Origin: a virus
IMG/VR virus record: IMGVR_UViG_3300020205_000899
Location: 1 to 29,376 of that record
Length of the DNA: 29,376 nucleotides
Direction: 5' to 3' (one strand)
Below the pieces are notes generated by a model. The model worked only from the letters and a program-made list of their open reading frames with translations, had not been told where the DNA came from and ran no database searches. Position numbers and translations under genes: made by a program. This document shows positions 1 to 23,116 of the stretch, in pieces. How positions within the stretch are numbered: position 1 is the stretch's first letter; the number at the start of each line of letters is the position of its first letter.

Positions 1-1519
1 CAAGTTCTAGTACACTGACGTTCTTCAACCCGCCAGTAACTCGAGCCTTTTCAGTCAACGAGCTGGCATTCTGAATCCACTCTGCGGGAGGATTGTAAAC
101 AGCCTCAAAGAACGCCACAGTGTCCATTGGCTTGGTCTTATCAGTACGAGACAATACATACACATTGTGAGTGTTAGATTCATCCTTGGACTTGGCAGTT
201 TTCTTCCAGTGGAACTTGGCACGCTCTGTAGCACCAACTTTCAAATCATTAACAACAAAGCGAACGCCGCGGTCAATACTAAAAAGCCAGTAGTTGACGG
301 TTTTGTGAGTACCGTTAGCTTGACTAACATGATCATAGTTTGCCTTGTGATTAGAGGCCGAACTGCTTGAACCACTATGGCTAAATGCTGTAACAGAAAT
401 GTTGTACTTGGCGGCAAGGTCTTCAACAGTGTGTTTGTTGCTGACAAAGAATTCCCAAGAACGAGAAGTAGTCGCATTGATTATTTCGAATTTAGTATCT
501 ACGACATACTTTTGTACAGCATTAGACCACAAGGCGCTGTCACGCTTGTTCTTCAAGAACAGTCCACGATGCCATGTGTTTTCGATAGCATCAGCTTCTT
601 TTGCCAACACCACAGTCAACGCACTATTCAACGCTTCCAATTTTGTTTTGATAGCTTCGATAGTTTGTGGAATGTATGACAGACCTTCGCGTGATGCTTG
701 GAAGTCCAACTCACCGATAGCAAAGTGCATTTCCAAACCACAGCTCAATAGCTGACGAAGGTCGCCTAGCGTAGACTCGGCAGTTGGTACATCAATTGGG
801 TAAGCAATATTACCCATGACGGCAACACTACGACCGTTCTTAAGACTGTGAACTCCGGGGACAATGTCCTTGGTTTCGTATTCAACGTTACGGAACTCAA
901 ACCCTGCGTGACCAGAAATAACTGGACGCAATTTAAAGTGAGTGTAAACTGAACGAGCTTCGTCGCGGAATTTACTGTAGTCGTAATAGTCATTGACGCT
1001 GAATTTAACTTCAACACCGTTAGGCTCGTCAGTTGCTTCGGTCATCATTTGGGCGATGCTAGGCACACCGTCACCGTTGATGAAAGCAGAGTAGATACCT
1101 TTCTGACCGTTTTGGATCGCGGTTACAGTGAAATTATCTGTATAACTGAACGGAGACTTGCTACCAAGACCAAGAGCACCAATAAAATCATTAGAGCCAG
1201 TTTTAGTAGATTCGAAGTATGTAGTATAAATGCTCGTGACCTGTTCATGGCTCAATCCTGTACCATAGTCACGGATGCTGAAATGCGGCTCGAGTTGATT
1301 TGGAAGATGTACATCAAAGGGGGTGTCTTGCTTGTCTGCGGCCGCATGTGAGTCCACAGCGTTACAGCTCAATTCACGGATGATAGCACGGATCTTGTTA
1401 GCATACAAGCCCGAGCTCAGAATGTTAAATGCTTTAGCAGAGTTACGGATGCGGAACTCGCCAATTTCGCCAACGTTGCTCAAAACTGCTTCGTTTTGGG
1501 GAGCGTTATTAAGAATCAT
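1..1519 (-). CDS. rIIA: RIIA-like protein, GHKL ATPase domain (C-terminus off the window)
   Basis: An open frame of 506 codons starts with ATG at 1519 and leaves the window at base 1, so the C-terminus is missing. The N-terminal half has the GHKL (HATPase_c) ATP-binding signature: N-box RELSCNAVDSH (residues 48-58), G1 box DYGTGL (84-89) and glycine-rich lid GALGLGSKSPF (114-124). The stretch around FNILSSGLYANKIRAIIREL aligns by eye with phage T4 rIIA, which has [20 protein letters not shown] at the same place. In T4, rIIA is an early, membrane-associated protein needed for lysis inhibition and for growth on lambda lysogens that carry RexAB; its biochemical role is not settled. The RBS is AGAAAGG before the ATG, and a consensus sigma70 promoter lies 42-70 bases upstream. 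Family assignment is firm; function here is inferred from T4. Confidence 0.93.
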   Translation of the reverse strand, partial: MILNNAPQNEAVLSNVGEIGEFRIRNSAKAFNILSSGLYANKIRAIIRELSCNAVDSHAAADKQDTPFDVHLPNQLEPHFSIRDYGTGLSHEQVTSIYTTYFESTKTGSNDFIGALGLGSKSPFSYTDNFTVTAIQNGQKGIYSAFINGDGVPSIAQMMTEATDEPNGVEVKFSVNDYYDYSKFRDEARSVYTHFKLRPVISGHAGFEFRNVEYETKDIVPGVHSLKNGRSVAVMGNIAYPIDVPTAESTLGDLRQLLSCGLEMHFAIGELDFQASREGLSYIPQTIEAIKTKLEALNSALTVVLAKEADAIENTWHRGLFLKNKRDSALWSNAVQKYVVDTKFEIINATTSRSWEFFVSNKHTVEDLAAKYNISVTAFSHSGSSSSASNHKANYDHVSQANGTHKTVNYWLFSIDRGVRFVVNDLKVGATERAKFHWKKTAKSKDESNTHNVYVLSRTDKTKPMDTVAFFEAVYNPPAEWIQNASSLTEKARVTGGLKNVSVLEL

Positions 1520-9949: not shown

Positions 9950-10480
9950 TTAACGAGGTTTTATCTTGAGCTTAGAATAAATGTTTTGTACACCCACAGC
10001 CTGTCGGATAGCATCCTGTAGGGCATCGTGTTTGCTACCTTTTGGCATGTCCGGATCATAGCCCAAATCAAACAATGTGCGAGTATCACGAAGTTGCCAG
10101 AAGTTCCAAGGCAAAGGTTTCTTTAGTTGACTGTAAAGACTTTCGAGGATAACCAAGTCAAAGGTAGCGCCGTGACTCCAAAAGGTATCACAGCCCCAGG
10201 CAAACTTATGGAACTGATCCATAGCATCCGCAAGTGGGATACGACCTTCTTCACTAAAGGCTTCTTCCATAATCACAGGATCTTGTTTGCTCCACCAGTC
10301 CAAAGTATTTGGATCAATTTCACGACCTAATGCGTCCTGGTCATCTAGGTTAATCTTAAAGTAGATCTTATCCGCGTAGCCATTTCCGTATGGGTTGAAA
10401 TGTACAGCGCCTAAACTTAGGACCACTGCGTTTGGGGAAACTGCCATAGTTTCCATATCTACCATAAGTGCTTTTGTCAT
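9950..10480 (-). CDS. DEDDh 3'-5' exonuclease, DexA/Rv2179c-like
   Basis: This 176-residue protein has all DEDDh exonuclease motifs: VDMET (Asp8, Glu10), SHGATFDLVILE (Asp108), and KHDALQDAIRQA (His151, Asp156). The start MTKALMVDMETM and SLGAVHFNP match the Rv2179c-like/DexA group of nucleic-acid 3' trimming enzymes. In T4, DexA is an early 3'-5' exonuclease. This one is compact, with only the catalytic fold. It overlaps the upstream PD-(D/E)XK gene by 4 nt. Substrate (DNA or RNA) cannot be told from sequence. Confidence 0.88.
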   Translation of the reverse strand: MTKALMVDMETMAVSPNAVVLSLGAVHFNPYGNGYADKIYFKINLDDQDALGREIDPNTLDWWSKQDPVIMEEAFSEEGRIPLADAMDQFHKFAWGCDTFWSHGATFDLVILESLYSQLKKPLPWNFWQLRDTRTLFDLGYDPDMPKGSKHDALQDAIRQAVGVQNIYSKLKIKPR

Positions 10481-11213: not shown

Positions 11214-11446
11214 TACATTTTTTTAGGTAATTGCTGTTCGCGTAGCTTTTTATTCCAACGAGCCTTGGCAGCGCCTTTTTTACGCTTACGCTCCGTCGTT
11301 GGTTTTTCATAGAATTGTTTGGCCAATACATCCATTAGCTTGCCAGATTCGTCAACCTTTTTCTTGAATTTTCTTAGGGCAACGTTAATGTTAGCATCTT
11401 TTACTTCAACACAAATGCCTCGCCCTGAACTATTGTTTTTTCTCAT
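11210..11446 (-). CDS. rpsU: Phage-encoded ribosomal protein bS21
   Basis: This 78-residue basic protein matches bS21: [20 protein letters not shown], then [21 protein letters not shown] and a Lys/Arg-rich tail. The [12 protein letters not shown] block is the family hallmark. bS21 sits on the 30S platform near the anti-Shine-Dalgarno end of 16S rRNA and helps mRNA binding; phage copies are known in large aquatic phages and are thought to replace or supplement the host protein. The start has no strong RBS (AGAAA before the ATG) and lies inside the end of clpX (17-nt overlap), so translation is probably coupled to clpX. The length is close to bacterial bS21. Assignment is firm; effect on the host ribosome is inferred. 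Confidence 0.93.
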
Positions 11447-12671
11447 TTTCTACTTTATCAAAAATTAATACAGCTGGTTTTCCTTCAACCGTATCCTTAC
11501 TTATCACTATTTTGGTTAAACCTCTTTCTACGAGATCCATCGCTTCAAATTGATATTTAAGTAGTATTTTTTCTAATATATTTTTGAGTCCGCGAGCATT
11601 GGTTTCCATAGTTTTGGCCTGTTCGGCAATAGATAGCAATGCGTTATCTTCTATTTTGAGTTCAACACCGTCTAGGTCAAAAATGTACTGATACTGACGT
11701 AACAGATTATTCTTTGGTTCTTTAAGAATTGTTACCAATTGTTCGGTGGTCAACTCTTCTACACAGGCAATATTACCAAATCGTCCTACAAATTCTGGAA
11801 TTAGACCGTAGCTGATTAAATCTTTTGTAGTAACATCTTTATGTAGAGATTTCTTTTCATCTTTTGGAGCTATCTTTGATCCAAATCCCACTGAACTCTT
11901 GCTAGTCCTACGTGCTATGATCTTTTCCAATCCTACAAATGCTCCACCGCAGATAAACAGAATGTGATGTGTATTAATTTCGTTCATCTCACCTCGGGGG
12001 TGTTTACGTTTTTCTCCGGCAGGTAGTCGCACAATACTGCCTTCAATCATTTTGAGCAATGCTTGTTGTACGCCTTCACCACTTACGTCTCGAGTGATGC
12101 TGGTGCTTTCACCTTTGCGGGCAATCTTATCAATTTCGTCAATGTAGACAATACCGTGTTCTGCCTTCTTAATGTCGCCTTCAGCATCGGCTACTAATCG
12201 TACTAATACACTTTCAACATCATCGCCAACATATCCTGCTTCAGTTAGTCCAGTAGCATCACAAATGGCAAATGGAACATCTAGGTATTCTGCCAGTTTA
12301 CGAACTAAGAATGTCTTGCCGCAACCTGTTGGACCCATCATAAGAACGTTGGTCTTGTCAATTTCTATATTCTGATTGTTTTTAGCAATACGTTTAAAGT
12401 GTTGACATACTGCTACGCTTAGGGCAATCTTAGCATCGTCCTGTCCTATAATATAGTCATCGAGGTACTCTTTAACTCTTACAGGATTTAAAAGTTGTGC
12501 GTCGTCTGTTGGGAATTTCTTAATCTTATTATCGTCTTTGAGTATGTTAACACATAGGTCTACGCACTCATTACAAACAGCGACGTCGTCACCACCGACG
12601 ATAAGTTTTTCAACTTCTTCTTTACTTTTGCCGCAAAAACTACAGCAGGGAGTATTATTGTTATTTGACAA
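11430..12671 (-). CDS. clpX: ClpX, AAA+ unfoldase of the ClpXP protease
   Basis: This 413-residue protein is a complete ClpX. It has the N-terminal zinc-binding domain (Cys10, Cys13, Cys33, Cys36), Walker A GPTGCGKT (113-120), pore loop 1 GYVGDD (146-151), Walker [10 protein letters not shown] (174-182), the RKH loop in [10 protein letters not shown] that helps read ssrA tags in E. coli ClpX, a ClpP-docking loop with VGF where E. coli has IGF, and sensor [13 protein letters not shown]. All functional loops are kept, so it probably unfolds substrates and docks on host ClpP; no phage ClpP is seen here. The start is TTG at 12671, supported by GAGG six bases upstream and by the absence of any suitable ATG before the zinc domain. 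It overlaps the gene upstream by 11 nt and bS21 downstream by 17 nt. Confidence 0.95.
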
Positions 12672-17660: not shown

Positions 17661-18371
17661 TTAGAATGCTTTTGATACAGATACTACGAAAGTGTCTCTG
17701 TAAAGACGCTGTGCGTTAACTGTATTGGCAGAATCAAATCCGCTTCCTTTGTTACTATTGGTGTAGTACTTACCAGCAATGTCCCAACCTTGTAGATTGT
17801 AAACAGCACCAACGTTCCAATCGGTATAGTTTAAAGAAGAACTGTTAGAAATGTCAGTACGACCAACGTGTGCTACAGCGGTTAAATTCTTAACCAATGG
17901 TTGAGCAAGGTCAACTTGGTAATAATTAGAATTCTTACTGTTAGCAATACCAAAGTAGTTACCTAATGACTGACTTGCCTTGGCAGAGATCGGTCCTTTG
18001 CTTACACCAACGTAGACTTCGTTTGTATCGAAATCAGTTGAAGTACCGTTAGTGGCACGTGGGTAGAAATAGTTCATTGAACCTACATCAACTGTAAATC
18101 CAAGAAAGTCCTTCTTAAATCCTGCGTACAAATCGCTTTCTAGTCCTGCGCCGTTGCTATACACTAAAGAGCTAACTGAACTGTTCCAGTTACCGGCATA
18201 GAAGCCGCTCTTATGAGTAAAGTCAACGCCACCTTGAACAGCTGGAGCATTTTGAGTTTGGCTTACACCACGGAAACGATAGTCTGAAGTTAGACCAAGA
18301 TTGCCAGTGATTTCCGCTTGGGCTACAGAGATGCCTGCTGCCATAAGTAGTGCGAGTAATAGTTTTTTCAT
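17661..18371 (-). CDS. Outer-membrane beta-barrel protein, Gcw_chp / TIGR02001 family
   Basis: This 236-residue protein starts at the ATG at 18371 with a type I signal peptide MKKLLLALLMAAGISVAQA, cleavage expected after AQA. The mature start has GLTSDYRFRGVSQTQNAPAV and SGFYAGNW, the hallmark of the Gcw_chp (TIGR02001) family of proteobacterial outer-membrane proteins. Alternating polar/hydrophobic strands and a C-terminal Phe (FVVSVSKAF) fit a barrel assembled by BAM. It is a single-gene unit with its own sigma70 promoter and terminator. Such a gene is unexpected in a phage; it could alter the cell surface or porin content of the infected host. Family call is firm, role inferred. Confidence 0.88.
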   Translation of the reverse strand: MKKLLLALLMAAGISVAQAEITGNLGLTSDYRFRGVSQTQNAPAVQGGVDFTHKSGFYAGNWNSSVSSLVYSNGAGLESDLYAGFKKDFLGFTVDVGSMNYFYPRATNGTSTDFDTNEVYVGVSKGPISAKASQSLGNYFGIANSKNSNYYQVDLAQPLVKNLTAVAHVGRTDISNSSSLNYTDWNVGAVYNLQGWDIAGKYYTNSNKGSGFDSANTVNAQRLYRDTFVVSVSKAF

Positions 18372-18415
18372 TGTTTTAATTTCCTTTAAATGTTGATCTT
18401 TTATGATCATACACT

Positions 18416-20142: not shown

Positions 20143-21537
20143 TTATTTCATGCTGTTAGCACGAACTTCTTCAAAGGTATAATCCTTGTGAAGATTGCCA
20201 CTCCAGTAAACTGGAACAAGAGCATCAGTCCATCCAGTTCCTTTGTCAGTCCAACCATGCGGTTGTTCAACGCTAGTTTGGAACTCCTCTCCCGACTGCC
20301 AAAGTGTGACACGACCTTTCTTACTGGCCTTGACACGGTCAGTGATTGGATCTTTGAAAACATCAACCCATTCGCCGTTGATCAGTGCCGCACTACACTT
20401 CATGGCAAATTTTTGAGTATCGCGATCCAATTGCTGTAGCAAAGCACCGCCCATACCAAACGCAAGGTTATCGGCACTCCAGCCATTCAAGTCAACTACA
20501 ACACCCAGGATGCTACGGACGCTCAATTGGTTGATACCATCGCCCCAAAGCAATCGAACATTGTTCAACACTTTGTAGCCTTTTGCGTTAACTGTGTAGC
20601 CAAAAGTTTCACCTAGGATGTGGAACATCTTTGGCAGGACTTCAACTGGATCTCCACTATCAGGACGAATGACAACAGTAGCACCACTGTCAATAACTTG
20701 TTGTTTCAGTTCAGTGCCCCACATGCGGCAGGCTTCGTAGATGTCGTAACTGTCAGACACTACAGCCAACAATGCGCCAGGCTTGCCAAACTGTGCAACC
20801 ATGTTGCTATAGGCTTTTACTTCACCTGCTCGTCCCCAACTAGTGATTGTACTATGCTCGGCAGCGGGTATGCTGAATCCAGCCACACCAGCATTGTAAT
20901 ACTCCCTAGCGAATAACATACCAGAAATATTGTCCGTGCCCATAAAGTTAACGAGGTGCGCCGCACCACCAATGCCAGCAGACTCCATTGAACTAACACC
21001 ACGAGCGCCAAAATCGTGTAACTTAAAACCGATTGTAGTAGGATCACCTGATTTCTCCAAATAGTCTGCGATAATGTTTTTAATCATTTTGCTTTGAGTA
21101 GCCACTGTGGTAGGATACCAAATAGCACGAAGCAAGGCAGTTTCCAACCAAGTGGTCAACCAGAACGCTTTAGGATCAGTGTTTTCAATAGTTGCCAAAA
21201 CGTTTTTAACAGGAACCACTGTGCCTTCAGGTACAGCACGAATAACAATCGGAAGGTAACCTCTGTGTGCTGATAGAATGTATTCCCATCCTTCTCTGTT
21301 GAAAGGTTCGCCATGGGCTGTAAGAATTTCATCAGCAATATCAATATCGGCTTGGGTGATTGGTTCAAGTAGGTACTCCTTAATAAAGGCCTGGAGGCCA
21401 AAGAACACGGTTCGGTCATACCGTCCACCGCGTGATTCAATATAACTGTAAACACCTGTGGTGCCCAACGGATATTGTTTGAACATTGAGACTTTGTAGC
21501 TGTCTGTGTTCAGGATAAGATTTTTAGAGAGTTTCAT
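20143..21537 (-). CDS. nadV: Nicotinamide phosphoribosyltransferase (NAMPT/NadV)
   Basis: This 464-residue protein matches NAMPT, which makes NMN from nicotinamide and PRPP. Key residues by comparison with the human enzyme are present: TDSYKVSMFKQYP at the N-terminus, KLHDFGARGVSS (His174, Arg179), GTDN (Asp202), PAAEHSTITSWG with the catalytic His228, SDSYDIY, and IRPDSGDP (Arg291, Asp293). The length is close to bacterial and phage NadV. The product NMN is the substrate of the NadM-Nudix enzyme encoded just upstream, so the two form a two-step route from nicotinamide to NAD+. In phages this pair is known to rebuild NAD+ after NAD-depleting defence. The leader has a structured element shared with the NadM gene. 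Confidence 0.95.
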   Translation of the reverse strand: MKLSKNLILNTDSYKVSMFKQYPLGTTGVYSYIESRGGRYDRTVFFGLQAFIKEYLLEPITQADIDIADEILTAHGEPFNREGWEYILSAHRGYLPIVIRAVPEGTVVPVKNVLATIENTDPKAFWLTTWLETALLRAIWYPTTVATQSKMIKNIIADYLEKSGDPTTIGFKLHDFGARGVSSMESAGIGGAAHLVNFMGTDNISGMLFAREYYNAGVAGFSIPAAEHSTITSWGRAGEVKAYSNMVAQFGKPGALLAVVSDSYDIYEACRMWGTELKQQVIDSGATVVIRPDSGDPVEVLPKMFHILGETFGYTVNAKGYKVLNNVRLLWGDGINQLSVRSILGVVVDLNGWSADNLAFGMGGALLQQLDRDTQKFAMKCSAALINGEWVDVFKDPITDRVKASKKGRVTLWQSGEEFQTSVEQPHGWTDKGTGWTDALVPVYWSGNLHKDYTFEEVRANSMK

Positions 21538-21538
21538 T

Positions 21539-21586
21539 TTAAAAGTTCCTTTTAAGTAAATCAGCCTTTGCGTCTATCGCTTAGGC
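21539..21586 (-). promoter_or_regulatory. Structured leader of the NAMPT gene (candidate cis-regulatory RNA, copy 2)
   Basis: On the minus strand, nested stems GCC/GGC and GCG/CGC with an AUAGA loop and A-rich internal loop (21564-21586) are followed by a second hairpin UUAAAAG-GAA-CUUUUAA (21539-21555). The second hairpin holds the AAAGGA ribosome-binding site just before the ATG. The same two-part arrangement with compensatory base changes precedes the NadM-Nudix gene. The first stem overlaps the NadM stop codon. It could act by hiding or exposing the RBS; the ligand, if any, is unknown. Confidence 0.55.
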
Positions 21587-22600
21587 ACCTACGAAGTGTT
21601 GTAGGATTTCGTAGTGGTCTTCAAAGCAGTCTTCCGACTTCACTTCTGCTATAGGCACCCACCTAGCCTTTTCAGCGTCATCATTACCTTTTACCTTGGG
21701 CAGTTCACCGTCGGGTAAAACAATATGAAACGCATGAGTGATAATACGTCCTCTTGGGCTACGACCAATAGCATCGAATACTTTACTGCGAACGATACTG
21801 CCCTTTAGCACAGGAGTAGGTACTTTAATCATTGTTTCTTCACGTAGTTCACGTAACATTGCCGCTTCAACTGATTTGTCAGTATTGGCGTTAACGTATC
21901 CACCTGGCAATGCCCACAGGCCTCGACCAGGTTCAGCACGGCGTTTAATCATTAGTACGTGGCCAGATTGGATAACCACAGCGTCAGCAGTACTGAAGAT
22001 AGGAGGATAAGGTAAACTAGCATATTGTTGTTTGTATTTGATGACAAATTCACGTTCTTTAATGATTTGTTCGTACTCTGGAGTTTCCTTAAACCTCATT
22101 AGGAATTCAAAAGCACTTTCTGGAACAACACCTTTAATAAAGGCCATGTTGGCATCACGCTTGAAATACAAATCACGAATATCAACTGCGCTCAAGAATT
22201 CAAGTAGTCCTACATTTTCAAATCCCCACTGAGGGAACATATCCAGGTAAAACGAGCTGTCATCTTTCTTGTGGCCGATGATACCCACACGTTCACCGGG
22301 CGTAGTATGTTTGCTAACCAAAGACTGGACACGGACTGCCCACGCTTGGTCGTTGTAAATTGTATCTGGGTTTGCTTCTACTGCGATACGCATCGACAAT
22401 CCACCTGCGGCAGATTTGATCATGCGCTCTCTTTCAAAAGAGGTAAATGGGTTTTTATAGGTACGTGGCTGATTGGCACTACCTGTAACAATCACCAGTT
22501 GATCGCAAAGTGCTGTGGCACGTTTGATAATCTCTAAGTGAGCATTGTGTATGGGCTGAAAGCGTCCGATTAGGACGAGGGTATCGTATTTCTTAGACAT
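21581..22600 (-). CDS. nadM: Bifunctional NMN adenylyltransferase / Nudix hydrolase (NadM-Nudix)
   Basis: This 339-residue protein has two domains. Residues 1-185 are a nucleotidyltransferase with GRFQPIHNAH (12-21, the GxxxPxHxxH type motif) and SFERERMI, as in NadM-type NMN adenylyltransferases, which make NAD+ from NMN and ATP. Residues 200-339 are a Nudix domain with the box GGYVNANTDKSVEAAMLREL then REETMI, including RELREE (250-255); related fusions hydrolyse ADP-ribose. The same fusion is known in Synechocystis and in vibriophage KVP40. With NAMPT downstream it completes NAD+ salvage. It is transcribed from its own promoter after the tmRNA terminator, with a short structured 5' leader. 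Confidence 0.93.
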   Translation of the reverse strand: MSKKYDTLVLIGRFQPIHNAHLEIIKRATALCDQLVIVTGSANQPRTYKNPFTSFERERMIKSAAGGLSMRIAVEANPDTIYNDQAWAVRVQSLVSKHTTPGERVGIIGHKKDDSSFYLDMFPQWGFENVGLLEFLSAVDIRDLYFKRDANMAFIKGVVPESAFEFLMRFKETPEYEQIIKEREFVIKYKQQYASLPYPPIFSTADAVVIQSGHVLMIKRRAEPGRGLWALPGGYVNANTDKSVEAAMLRELREETMIKVPTPVLKGSIVRSKVFDAIGRSPRGRIITHAFHIVLPDGELPKVKGNDDAEKARWVPIAEVKSEDCFEDHYEILQHFVGA

Positions 22601-22705: not shown

Positions 22706-22731
22706 CAAAAGAAACCCGCCGAAGCGGGTCC
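22706..22731 (-). terminator. Intrinsic terminator of the tmRNA transcript
   Basis: Minus-strand ACCCGC, TTCG loop, GCGGGT and a following TTCTTTT form a strong short terminator directly after the tmRNA coding piece. Confidence 0.85.
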
Positions 22732-22740
22732 TGTTATTTT

Positions 22741-23080
22741 CTGTTACGAGGTATAACTACCCTAAGCCGAGTTTAGGCGGCTAAGGCGAACTGTTCGTCG
22801 TTTGCATTTACGTGTTGTGCTTCTACGACCGGGTTACCCCAATCCTACGGGTTCTGCTTTCCCGAGCTGTCCACTCTGTTACTTGTTGCCCTGTCGAAAC
22901 CATGGCAGGCCCATTATTAAACATACTCCTTACCTAGCATTTTCAGTTCAAGGCTTGCAGGAACCGCCTTATATACTATCTAGGTTACACAGATTCCACG
23001 ATGGGAATATGTTTAATGGTGGACCTGGCGGGAGTCGAACCCGCGTCCAGAACACTTTTCTCTTTGCTTCATACAGCAAT
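22741..23080 (-). ncRNA. ssrA: Circularly permuted two-piece tmRNA
   Basis: In transcript order the 3' (acceptor) piece comes first. Its T arm GCGGG-TTCGACT-CCCGC is followed by CAGGTCC, A and an encoded CCA ending at 23017. After a 104-nt intervening segment (22913-23016) comes the 5' (coding) piece, starting GGGCCTGCCATGGTTTCGAC at 22912. GGGCCTG pairs with CAGGTCC over 7 bp with one G-U, closing the acceptor stem between the two pieces. The coding piece holds the tag frame GCA...TAA (22773-22805), which reads ANDEQFALAA. tmRNA with SmpB rescues stalled ribosomes and marks the broken product for ClpXP. Transcript ends are estimated from the promoter and terminator. A normal unpermuted gene is excluded because the 5' half lies downstream of the CCA end. 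Confidence 0.93.
22913..23016 (-). other. Intervening segment of the permuted tmRNA, with paired ends
   Basis: This 104-nt segment lies between the CCA end of the acceptor piece and the 5' end of the coding piece. Its two ends, TTAAACATATTCC and GGAGTATGTTTAA, are complementary over 13 positions with one mismatch. The pairing stacks near the acceptor stem and would bring both cleavage sites together. It is expected to be cut out during tmRNA maturation, by analogy with known two-piece tmRNAs. Confidence 0.75.
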
Positions 23081-23087
23081 AACTTAT

Positions 23088-23116
23088 ACTATACTATCTT
23101 TTGACGAGGCTGTCAA
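23088..23116 (-). promoter_or_regulatory. Sigma70 promoter of the tmRNA gene
   Basis: Minus-strand TTGACA (23111-23116), a 17-nt spacer and TATAGT (23088-23093), 70 bases before the encoded CCA end. The -35 box lies in the loop of a short hairpin (CGAGG...CCTCG), similar to the other stem-loop promoters in this window but without a T-run. Confidence 0.75.

Follow-up and report, generated by a model that had tools for sequence, protein, structure and literature searches.

Two-piece tmRNAs encoded by permuted ssrA genes are documented in phages; of the 133 unique phage tmRNAs counted in 2021, 53 were two-piece, and 50 of these 53 were marine or aquatic (PMC9004378). Methylophilales phage Melnitz (MZ577097) and Pelagibacter phage HTVC008M (NC_020484) are large phages with such a gene (PMC9004378), as is the case for the locus described here, from which Melnitz differs in that its RNA resembles those of alphaproteobacteria (PMC9004378), its tag is ANDNYVPVDYALAA, and its spacer measures 142 nt and holds an ORF, and HTVC008M in a spacer of 49 nt. 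The betaproteobacterial two-piece tmRNA (RF01850) shares with our locus the gene order, the tRNA-like domain, G3-U70, and the resume context, as well as a 10-aa tag of the ANDExFAxAA type, a spacer hairpin, and, in several copies, a UGAU end before G1. In contrast, the bacterial beta forms sampled (L314, L339-L350) have spacers of 25-43 nt compared with 104 nt here, our tag ANDEQFALAA was not among their tags (ANDERFALAA, ANDEHFAIAA, ANDEQFAIAA, ANDENFALAA, and others), and our gene is located in a phage, beside nucleotide and NAD genes. A protein gene inside ssrA has also been described for tmRNA genes with group I introns, some of which carry homing endonuclease genes; that case involves a self-splicing intron in an unpermuted gene (PMC11915505), whereas the phage nested genes reported below lie in the spacer of the permuted form, which is presumably removed by tRNA-type processing. 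Phages that encode a ribosome-rescue RNA and Clp proteins, as ours does, appear in passages on huge-phage translation sets with tmRNA and SmpB (PMC7162821) and on phage AP-J-162 with tmRNA and ClpX (PMC11242549). Those passages make no mention of permutation or spacer content, and the SmpB of the huge phages (PMC7162821) sets them apart from the relatives of our phage that were tested.

The stretch analysed here (the window) is an IMG/VR virus fragment of 29,376 bases with phage-type gene content, namely NadV, NMNAT/Nudix, dCMP deaminase, ribonucleotide reductase beta, and ThyX. The tmRNA gene and its surroundings comprise the following features:

23088-23116, minus strand: sigma-70-like promoter TTGACA-17-TATAGT, 11 of 12 positions in a consensus scan, position checked
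23017-23078, minus strand: first tmRNA piece, the 3' half of the tRNA-like domain, with T-arm GCGGGTTCGACTCCCGC, acceptor 3' strand CAGGTCC, discriminator A, and encoded CCA (ARAGORN 3' tRNA domain; RF04321 from 23078; mature 5' end approximate)
23027-23017, minus strand: CAGGTCC-A-CCA, read from the sequence, CCA end at 23017
22913-23016, minus strand: spacer (intervening segment) of 104 nt, structured, no ORF (fold -27.1 kcal/mol, z -3.7), presumably removed from the precursor
23004-23016, minus strand: 5' arm of the spacer helix, UUAAACAUAUUCC, 13 bp (folds)
22917-22929, minus strand: 3' arm of the spacer helix, GGAGUAUGUUUAA, then unpaired UAAU before G1 (folds)
22730-22912, minus strand: second (coding) tmRNA piece; 3' end approximate, before the terminator-like hairpin (RF01850 to 22710)
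from 22912, minus strand: GGGCCTG...GGTTTCGACA, read from the sequence
22888-22912, minus strand: start of the second piece, acceptor 5' strand GGGCCUG and D-arm-like GGUUUCGACA (ARAGORN 5' tRNA domain, Rfam; G1 = 22912)
22773-22805, minus strand: tag frame GCA...TAA, ANDEQFALAA, with resume context CGUAAAU ahead (ARAGORN and sequence)
22707-22729, minus strand: intrinsic-terminator-like hairpin ACCCGC-UUCG-GCGGGU, then UUCUUUU (sequence reading and fold)
20143-21537 and 21581-22600, minus strand: NadV (nicotinamide phosphoribosyltransferase) adjoining an NMNAT-Nudix fusion, directly downstream of the tmRNA

Inspection of the sequence revealed that the T-arm/CCA piece comes first on the minus strand and the GGTTTCGAC/tag piece second, so that the CCA-bearing 3' tRNA half stands ahead of the 5' half and tag. 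ARAGORN called a tmRNA* (permuted) at c[22682,23109] with the tag ANDEQFALAA, listed as 'Uncultured U02' in its dictionary, and Rfam cmscan matched two permuted models over their complete length, RF01850 beta_tmRNA at 23129-22710 (119.2 bits, E 5e-36, model 1-331; cut-off 84 bits) and RF04321 tmRNA_permuted at 23078-22773 (118.5 bits, model 1-213; cut-off 47 bits). The full-length matches and the acceptor pairing reveal a tRNA-like domain with acceptor stem, T-arm, and D-like GGUUUCGAC; the tag frame runs from the resume codon to a stop with an AA end (ANDEQFALAA*), and the fold has a z-score of -3.2. The acceptor halves GGGCCUG and CAGGUCC form 7/7 pairs including an alanine-type G3-U70. Among viral relatives, 14 distinct acceptor stems were found, each 7/7 paired; positions 4-6 are occupied by four to five different pair types, and 13 of the 14 stems keep G-U at 3-70.

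The covariance models and the permuted mode of ARAGORN thus bear out the original prediction of a two-piece permuted tmRNA, whose positions for the CCA end (23017) and the start of the coding piece (22912) were exact to the single base, and the predicted acceptor closure (GGGCCTG/CAGGTCC) and tag stand as well. The betaproteobacterial type, proposed on account of the tag, is supported by RF01850, which scored above the family cut-off and highest in its clan. An own promoter and terminator had also been proposed, and promoter-like and terminator-like elements do flank the gene according to sequence, scan, and fold; the consensus scan reported the terminator-like hairpin on the plus strand only, not as a minus-strand terminator. 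An unpermuted gene with a missed 5' half can be rejected, since a second GGTTTCGAC, sought on both strands of the window, was absent apart from the copy in the downstream piece, and no intact 5' half lies upstream. The window gene is therefore a sound new example of a phage two-piece tmRNA, with an expanded, ORF-less spacer; by itself it is of a known kind, here alongside a phage ClpX.

It was the 104-nt spacer, on which the original prediction had made no remark, that proved the most interesting feature. Bacterial relatives sampled have spacers of 4-44 nt, whereas spacers in the phage set obtained by scanning for the tag have a median of 87 nt and a maximum of 232 nt among the matches listed. 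A spacer helix is general in the phage copies: arms of the same locus pair over about 11-12 bp compared with about 6-9 bp (6.6-8.5 bp) when arms are swapped between loci, which indicates that the two arms changed together. The spacer usually ends in UGAU or UAAU before G1, and several bacterial beta copies have the same end. An ORF was looked for in the window's own spacer and none was found, neither does this spacer show the combination of Shine-Dalgarno sequence and spacer-filling ORF described next, and Rfam up to E 1 gave no match to another known RNA in it. As a separate observation, the noncoding spacers of L015, L045, L051, L071, L072, and L078 contain stretches resembling tRNA or tmRNA T-arms, e.g., GGTTCGAATCC, as if the spacer loop captured fragments of RNA genes.

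In many relatives, the CCA is directly followed by UAAGGA(G), an ATG lies a few nucleotides on, and the frame stays open to the end of the spacer. Such a Shine-Dalgarno sequence with a spacer-filling ORF was found in 20 of 62 distinct spacers of at least 60 nt among the matches listed of the tag-scan set, which was picked without regard to the spacer, compared with about 0.4 in shuffles and 0 on the antisense strand. The ORF criterion was set after examples had been seen; the selection analysis and the antisense control are independent of this choice. All nine spacers of at least 120 nt (9/9, among the matches listed) displayed a sense-strand open run nearly filling the spacer, and in 14 of 14 tested loci with a long spacer or an ORF, RF04321 aligned over both tmRNA halves around the spacer. 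Scanning for TCCACCATAAGGA-N2-9-ATG yielded 116 new loci, 52 of which are permuted tmRNAs, nearly all with spacer ORFs. Both scans together gave 84 ORF-bearing copies in about 41 groups at 40% identity. Nested genes are located as follows:

L008, L010, L016, L021-L026, L039, L041, L047, L076, L086, L123, and many of L352-L467: nested ORFs in tmRNA spacers, purifying selection
MZ577097 46096-46257: the nested ORF of Melnitz, 54 codons with the start in the spacer, purifying selection; it lies within a feature annotated only SsrA and is itself unannotated

The pooled pN/pS of the spacer ORFs is 0.38, and the ORF shared by L021 and L039 reveals a pS of 0.61 and a pN of 0.13 over 69 codons. One group belongs to DUF2061 (72.6 bits) and another to PGDYG (27.8 bits, cut-off 27), while many of the products are hydrophobic peptides of 20-30 aa. 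Sorted by the place of their stop codon, the 73 distinct coding spacers comprise 34 that stop 1 nt ahead of G1, 14 that stop 12-13 nt ahead of it, and 25 whose frame ends within the mature tmRNA.

It could be argued that these ORFs are frames left open by chance within the loop of a structured RNA, the phage spacers being no more than long hairpins for processing. An ORF is absent from the window spacer and from about two thirds of those in the tag-scan set, and the spacer state changed at least 16 times on the mature-RNA tree (80 tag-scan rows), as would suit such frames; in spacers below 100 nt, some ORF scores may indeed be due to chance. Against this stand the shuffle and antisense controls, the purifying selection, the known protein families, and the long frames filling their spacers, so that we consider chance very improbable as a general explanation and the nested genes very probably real coding genes. 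No report of protein genes nested in the discarded part of a tmRNA precursor was found in the open literature searched, and the descriptions of the permuted form in that literature contain neither the expanded spacer slot nor genes nested in it. These genes would add dozens of small phage proteins to the catalogue.

Melnitz offers a cultured case, in which the nested-gene idea is testable in an existing phage-host pair. Its 142-nt spacer shows GGAG-N6-ATG at the start of the nested ORF, which is present in the Melnitz isolates, and the labelling of the whole feature as SsrA illustrates how annotation overlooks such genes. Relatives of this ORF in marine contigs revealed a pS of 0.23-0.31 and a pN of 0.08-0.10 in the spacer part, and ORFs of the Melnitz type in such contigs show an in-frame insertion of eight codons. 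Judging from these substitutions, the Melnitz spacer ORF is under purifying selection. A glutamine riboswitch is reportedly present in the Melnitz ssrA region.

The nearest rows to the window tmRNA are viral, and its smallest well-supported clade comprises six rows (99/89), among them two scored as spacer-coding (L057 and L432) and three as noncoding (L045, L031, and L052); L057 is less secure than the long cases, because its frame ends inside the mature tmRNA. A sister phage (L123/L124) has a NadV 88% identical to that of the window; upstream of the same NMNAT-NadV pair, it carries a permuted tmRNA with the tag ANDSVYALAA and a 223-nt coding spacer whose ORF encodes about 65 aa. In most other NadV relatives, no tmRNA was seen near NadV. 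The tmRNA and its spacer content are thus both accessory. The pair of NadV and NMNAT-Nudix fusion in the window presumably resembles a phage pathway restoring NAD+. In L123, we also identified a GOLLD RNA (930-1394, plus strand, 201.8 bits); it encloses a tRNA-Lys and precedes the permuted tmRNA by about 1.8 kb.

With high confidence, we regard the window gene as a phage-borne permuted ssrA of betaproteobacterial type that makes a two-piece tmRNA for ribosome rescue and tagging, and its spacer as an insertion slot of the family. One precursor would be transcribed from the gene's own promoter, with the T-arm/CCA piece ahead of the tag piece, and the 104-nt spacer hairpin would place its 13-bp stem next to the acceptor stem. 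By analogy with known tRNA-type processing, host RNase P would cut before G1 (22912), host 3' trimming would free the CCA at 23017, and the two RNAs would be held together by the acceptor helix. AlaRS would charge the RNA with alanine via G3-U70, and host SmpB would load it onto stalled ribosomes, where ANDEQFALAA would be added to the stalled peptides, the ALAA end marking them for ClpX, which is also phage-encoded. The probable role would be to keep ribosomes recycling and to clear protein fragments while mRNAs are cut in infection. At the family level, the spacer hairpin would serve as the slot, with a small protein gene in the loop of many relatives, its Shine-Dalgarno sequence in the stem just past CCA and its stop often a UGA just before G1; the window would represent the ORF-less version.

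For the family, we lean towards a double gene, in which the precursor gives both a rescue RNA and the mRNA of a freely exchanged small protein, often one hydrophobic helix, with translation and processing mutually exclusive and the window in the empty state. Translation of the tmRNA precursor during infection is likely. Since the Shine-Dalgarno sequence follows CCA and the stop often precedes the RNase P site by 1 nt, a given molecule would be translated or processed but not both; a ribosome ending at the UGA beside G1 might, speculatively, cover the acceptor strand, and one precursor could therefore serve either as mRNA or as tmRNA. That this arrangement works as a switch is a tentative and rather doubtful extension. 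A slot leaving the working RNA untouched would be a possible reason for phages to keep the permuted form.

Two further explanations concern the RNA of the window itself. According to one, it derives from a host ssrA and is now a decayed or passenger copy that has lost its function. Imprecise excision can leave phages with ssrA fragments (PMC9004378), and an accessory tmRNA, absent near NadV in most relatives of the window phage, would suit such an origin; however, all elements tested are intact (acceptor with G3-U70, T-arm, resume site, ALAA tag frame, CCA, promoter, and terminator-like hairpin), the acceptor stems covary among viral relatives, and a close bacterial copy was not found in the genomes sampled, which leaves this explanation highly unlikely. 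We give similarly little credence to an RNA that mainly inhibits or diverts host trans-translation in the manner of phage DS6A, whose tag-less tmRNA reportedly inhibits the endogenous one (PMC11915505), even though some relatives of the window RNA have odd, long tags, since the complete tag frame ending in ALAA would be superfluous in an inhibitor and a ClpX is encoded by the phage itself.

The ClpX gene of the window is intact:

11430-12671, minus strand: ClpX unfoldase, 413 aa (Pfam zf-C4_ClpX and AAA_2; phmmer to ClpX 1.9e-120, 405.6 bits)

Its product displays the C4 zinc finger, the AAA+ core, Walker A GPTGCGKT, the pore loop GYVG, the RKH loop, the docking loop VGFG, and ARGL; the ClpP-docking loop reads IGFG in solved bacterial ClpX. 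Because ALAA-type tags are ClpX signals, the phage-made tag and its phage-made reader may cooperate. The pairing may also be a coincidence, since two of the seven ClpX-bearing records (7/31), L139 and L151, are phages with a NadV gene but no tmRNA seen in its vicinity, and we leave a linkage of tmRNA and ClpX as a lead. ClpP was found in 9 of 13 records tested, among them the window, whose 29-kb fragment revealed none. A phage SmpB was found in none of the 25 long phage records tested, and the window RNA would therefore depend on the SmpB of the host. Downstream of clpX, the window encodes a 3'-5' exoribonuclease Rv2179c-like protein (9950-10480, minus strand, 122 bits), which could be relevant to RNA turnover in infection. 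At 17661-18410 (minus strand, 177.5 bits), there is a protein of the Gcw_chp family, a bacterial family of unknown function, here on a phage contig.

Regarding occurrence, the original prediction had held such a gene to be rare in phages, which is wrong given the published two-piece phage tmRNAs (PMC9004378) and the exact 20-mer of the tag, which matched at least 119 IMG/VR stretches. The tmRNAs called there are nearly all permuted, and 96 permuted ARAGORN calls with exactly ANDEQFALAA were obtained among the IMG/VR matches listed. For a lytic phage, as had been assumed, the window gives no support. The hint at the host lineage holds loosely, as to the betaproteobacterial type, but the closest tmRNAs are those of other phages, and a betaproteobacterial-type host stays an unproven proposal. 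BLAST against cultured phages (50,697 records) gave no close relative, no record matching more than 15% of the query, and revealed short conserved stretches only, e.g., the T-arm. Among 84,980 genomes of bacteria and archaea, a strict tag pattern had one match, a 3-kb phage-like contig with seven tRNAs that looks like a phage binned into a MAG; as this pattern recovers only 42 of the viral matches listed, absence of the tag from bacteria is suggested, short of proof. A close bacterial tmRNA was sought in samples of 369, 85, 398, and 349 genomes, and the sole close match was L121, a phage-like contig binned into a MAG. Sampling of one order around a strong match to RF01850 revealed the permuted beta form in 14 of 349 species.

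An origin of the bacterial two-piece tmRNA in phages was considered and dropped. In a first tree, the bacterial beta forms were nested among the phage forms; a tree constrained to one clade of beta-type phage rows had a p-AU of 0.656 and an even better likelihood, and the claim is withheld because this single-clade tree is not rejected.

ARAGORN reported odd or unusually long tags for L356, L376, L383, L387, L389, L394, L405, L409, L415, and L439, e.g., ANAKAITTEAEVMTFTWDLPANESRYALAA, which could be real long tags or miscalled frames. Finally, L121 displayed a second T-arm-like tmRNA fragment at about 1428-1500 on the plus strand, seen in a translated ORF and lying about 1 kb from the complete permuted tmRNA.
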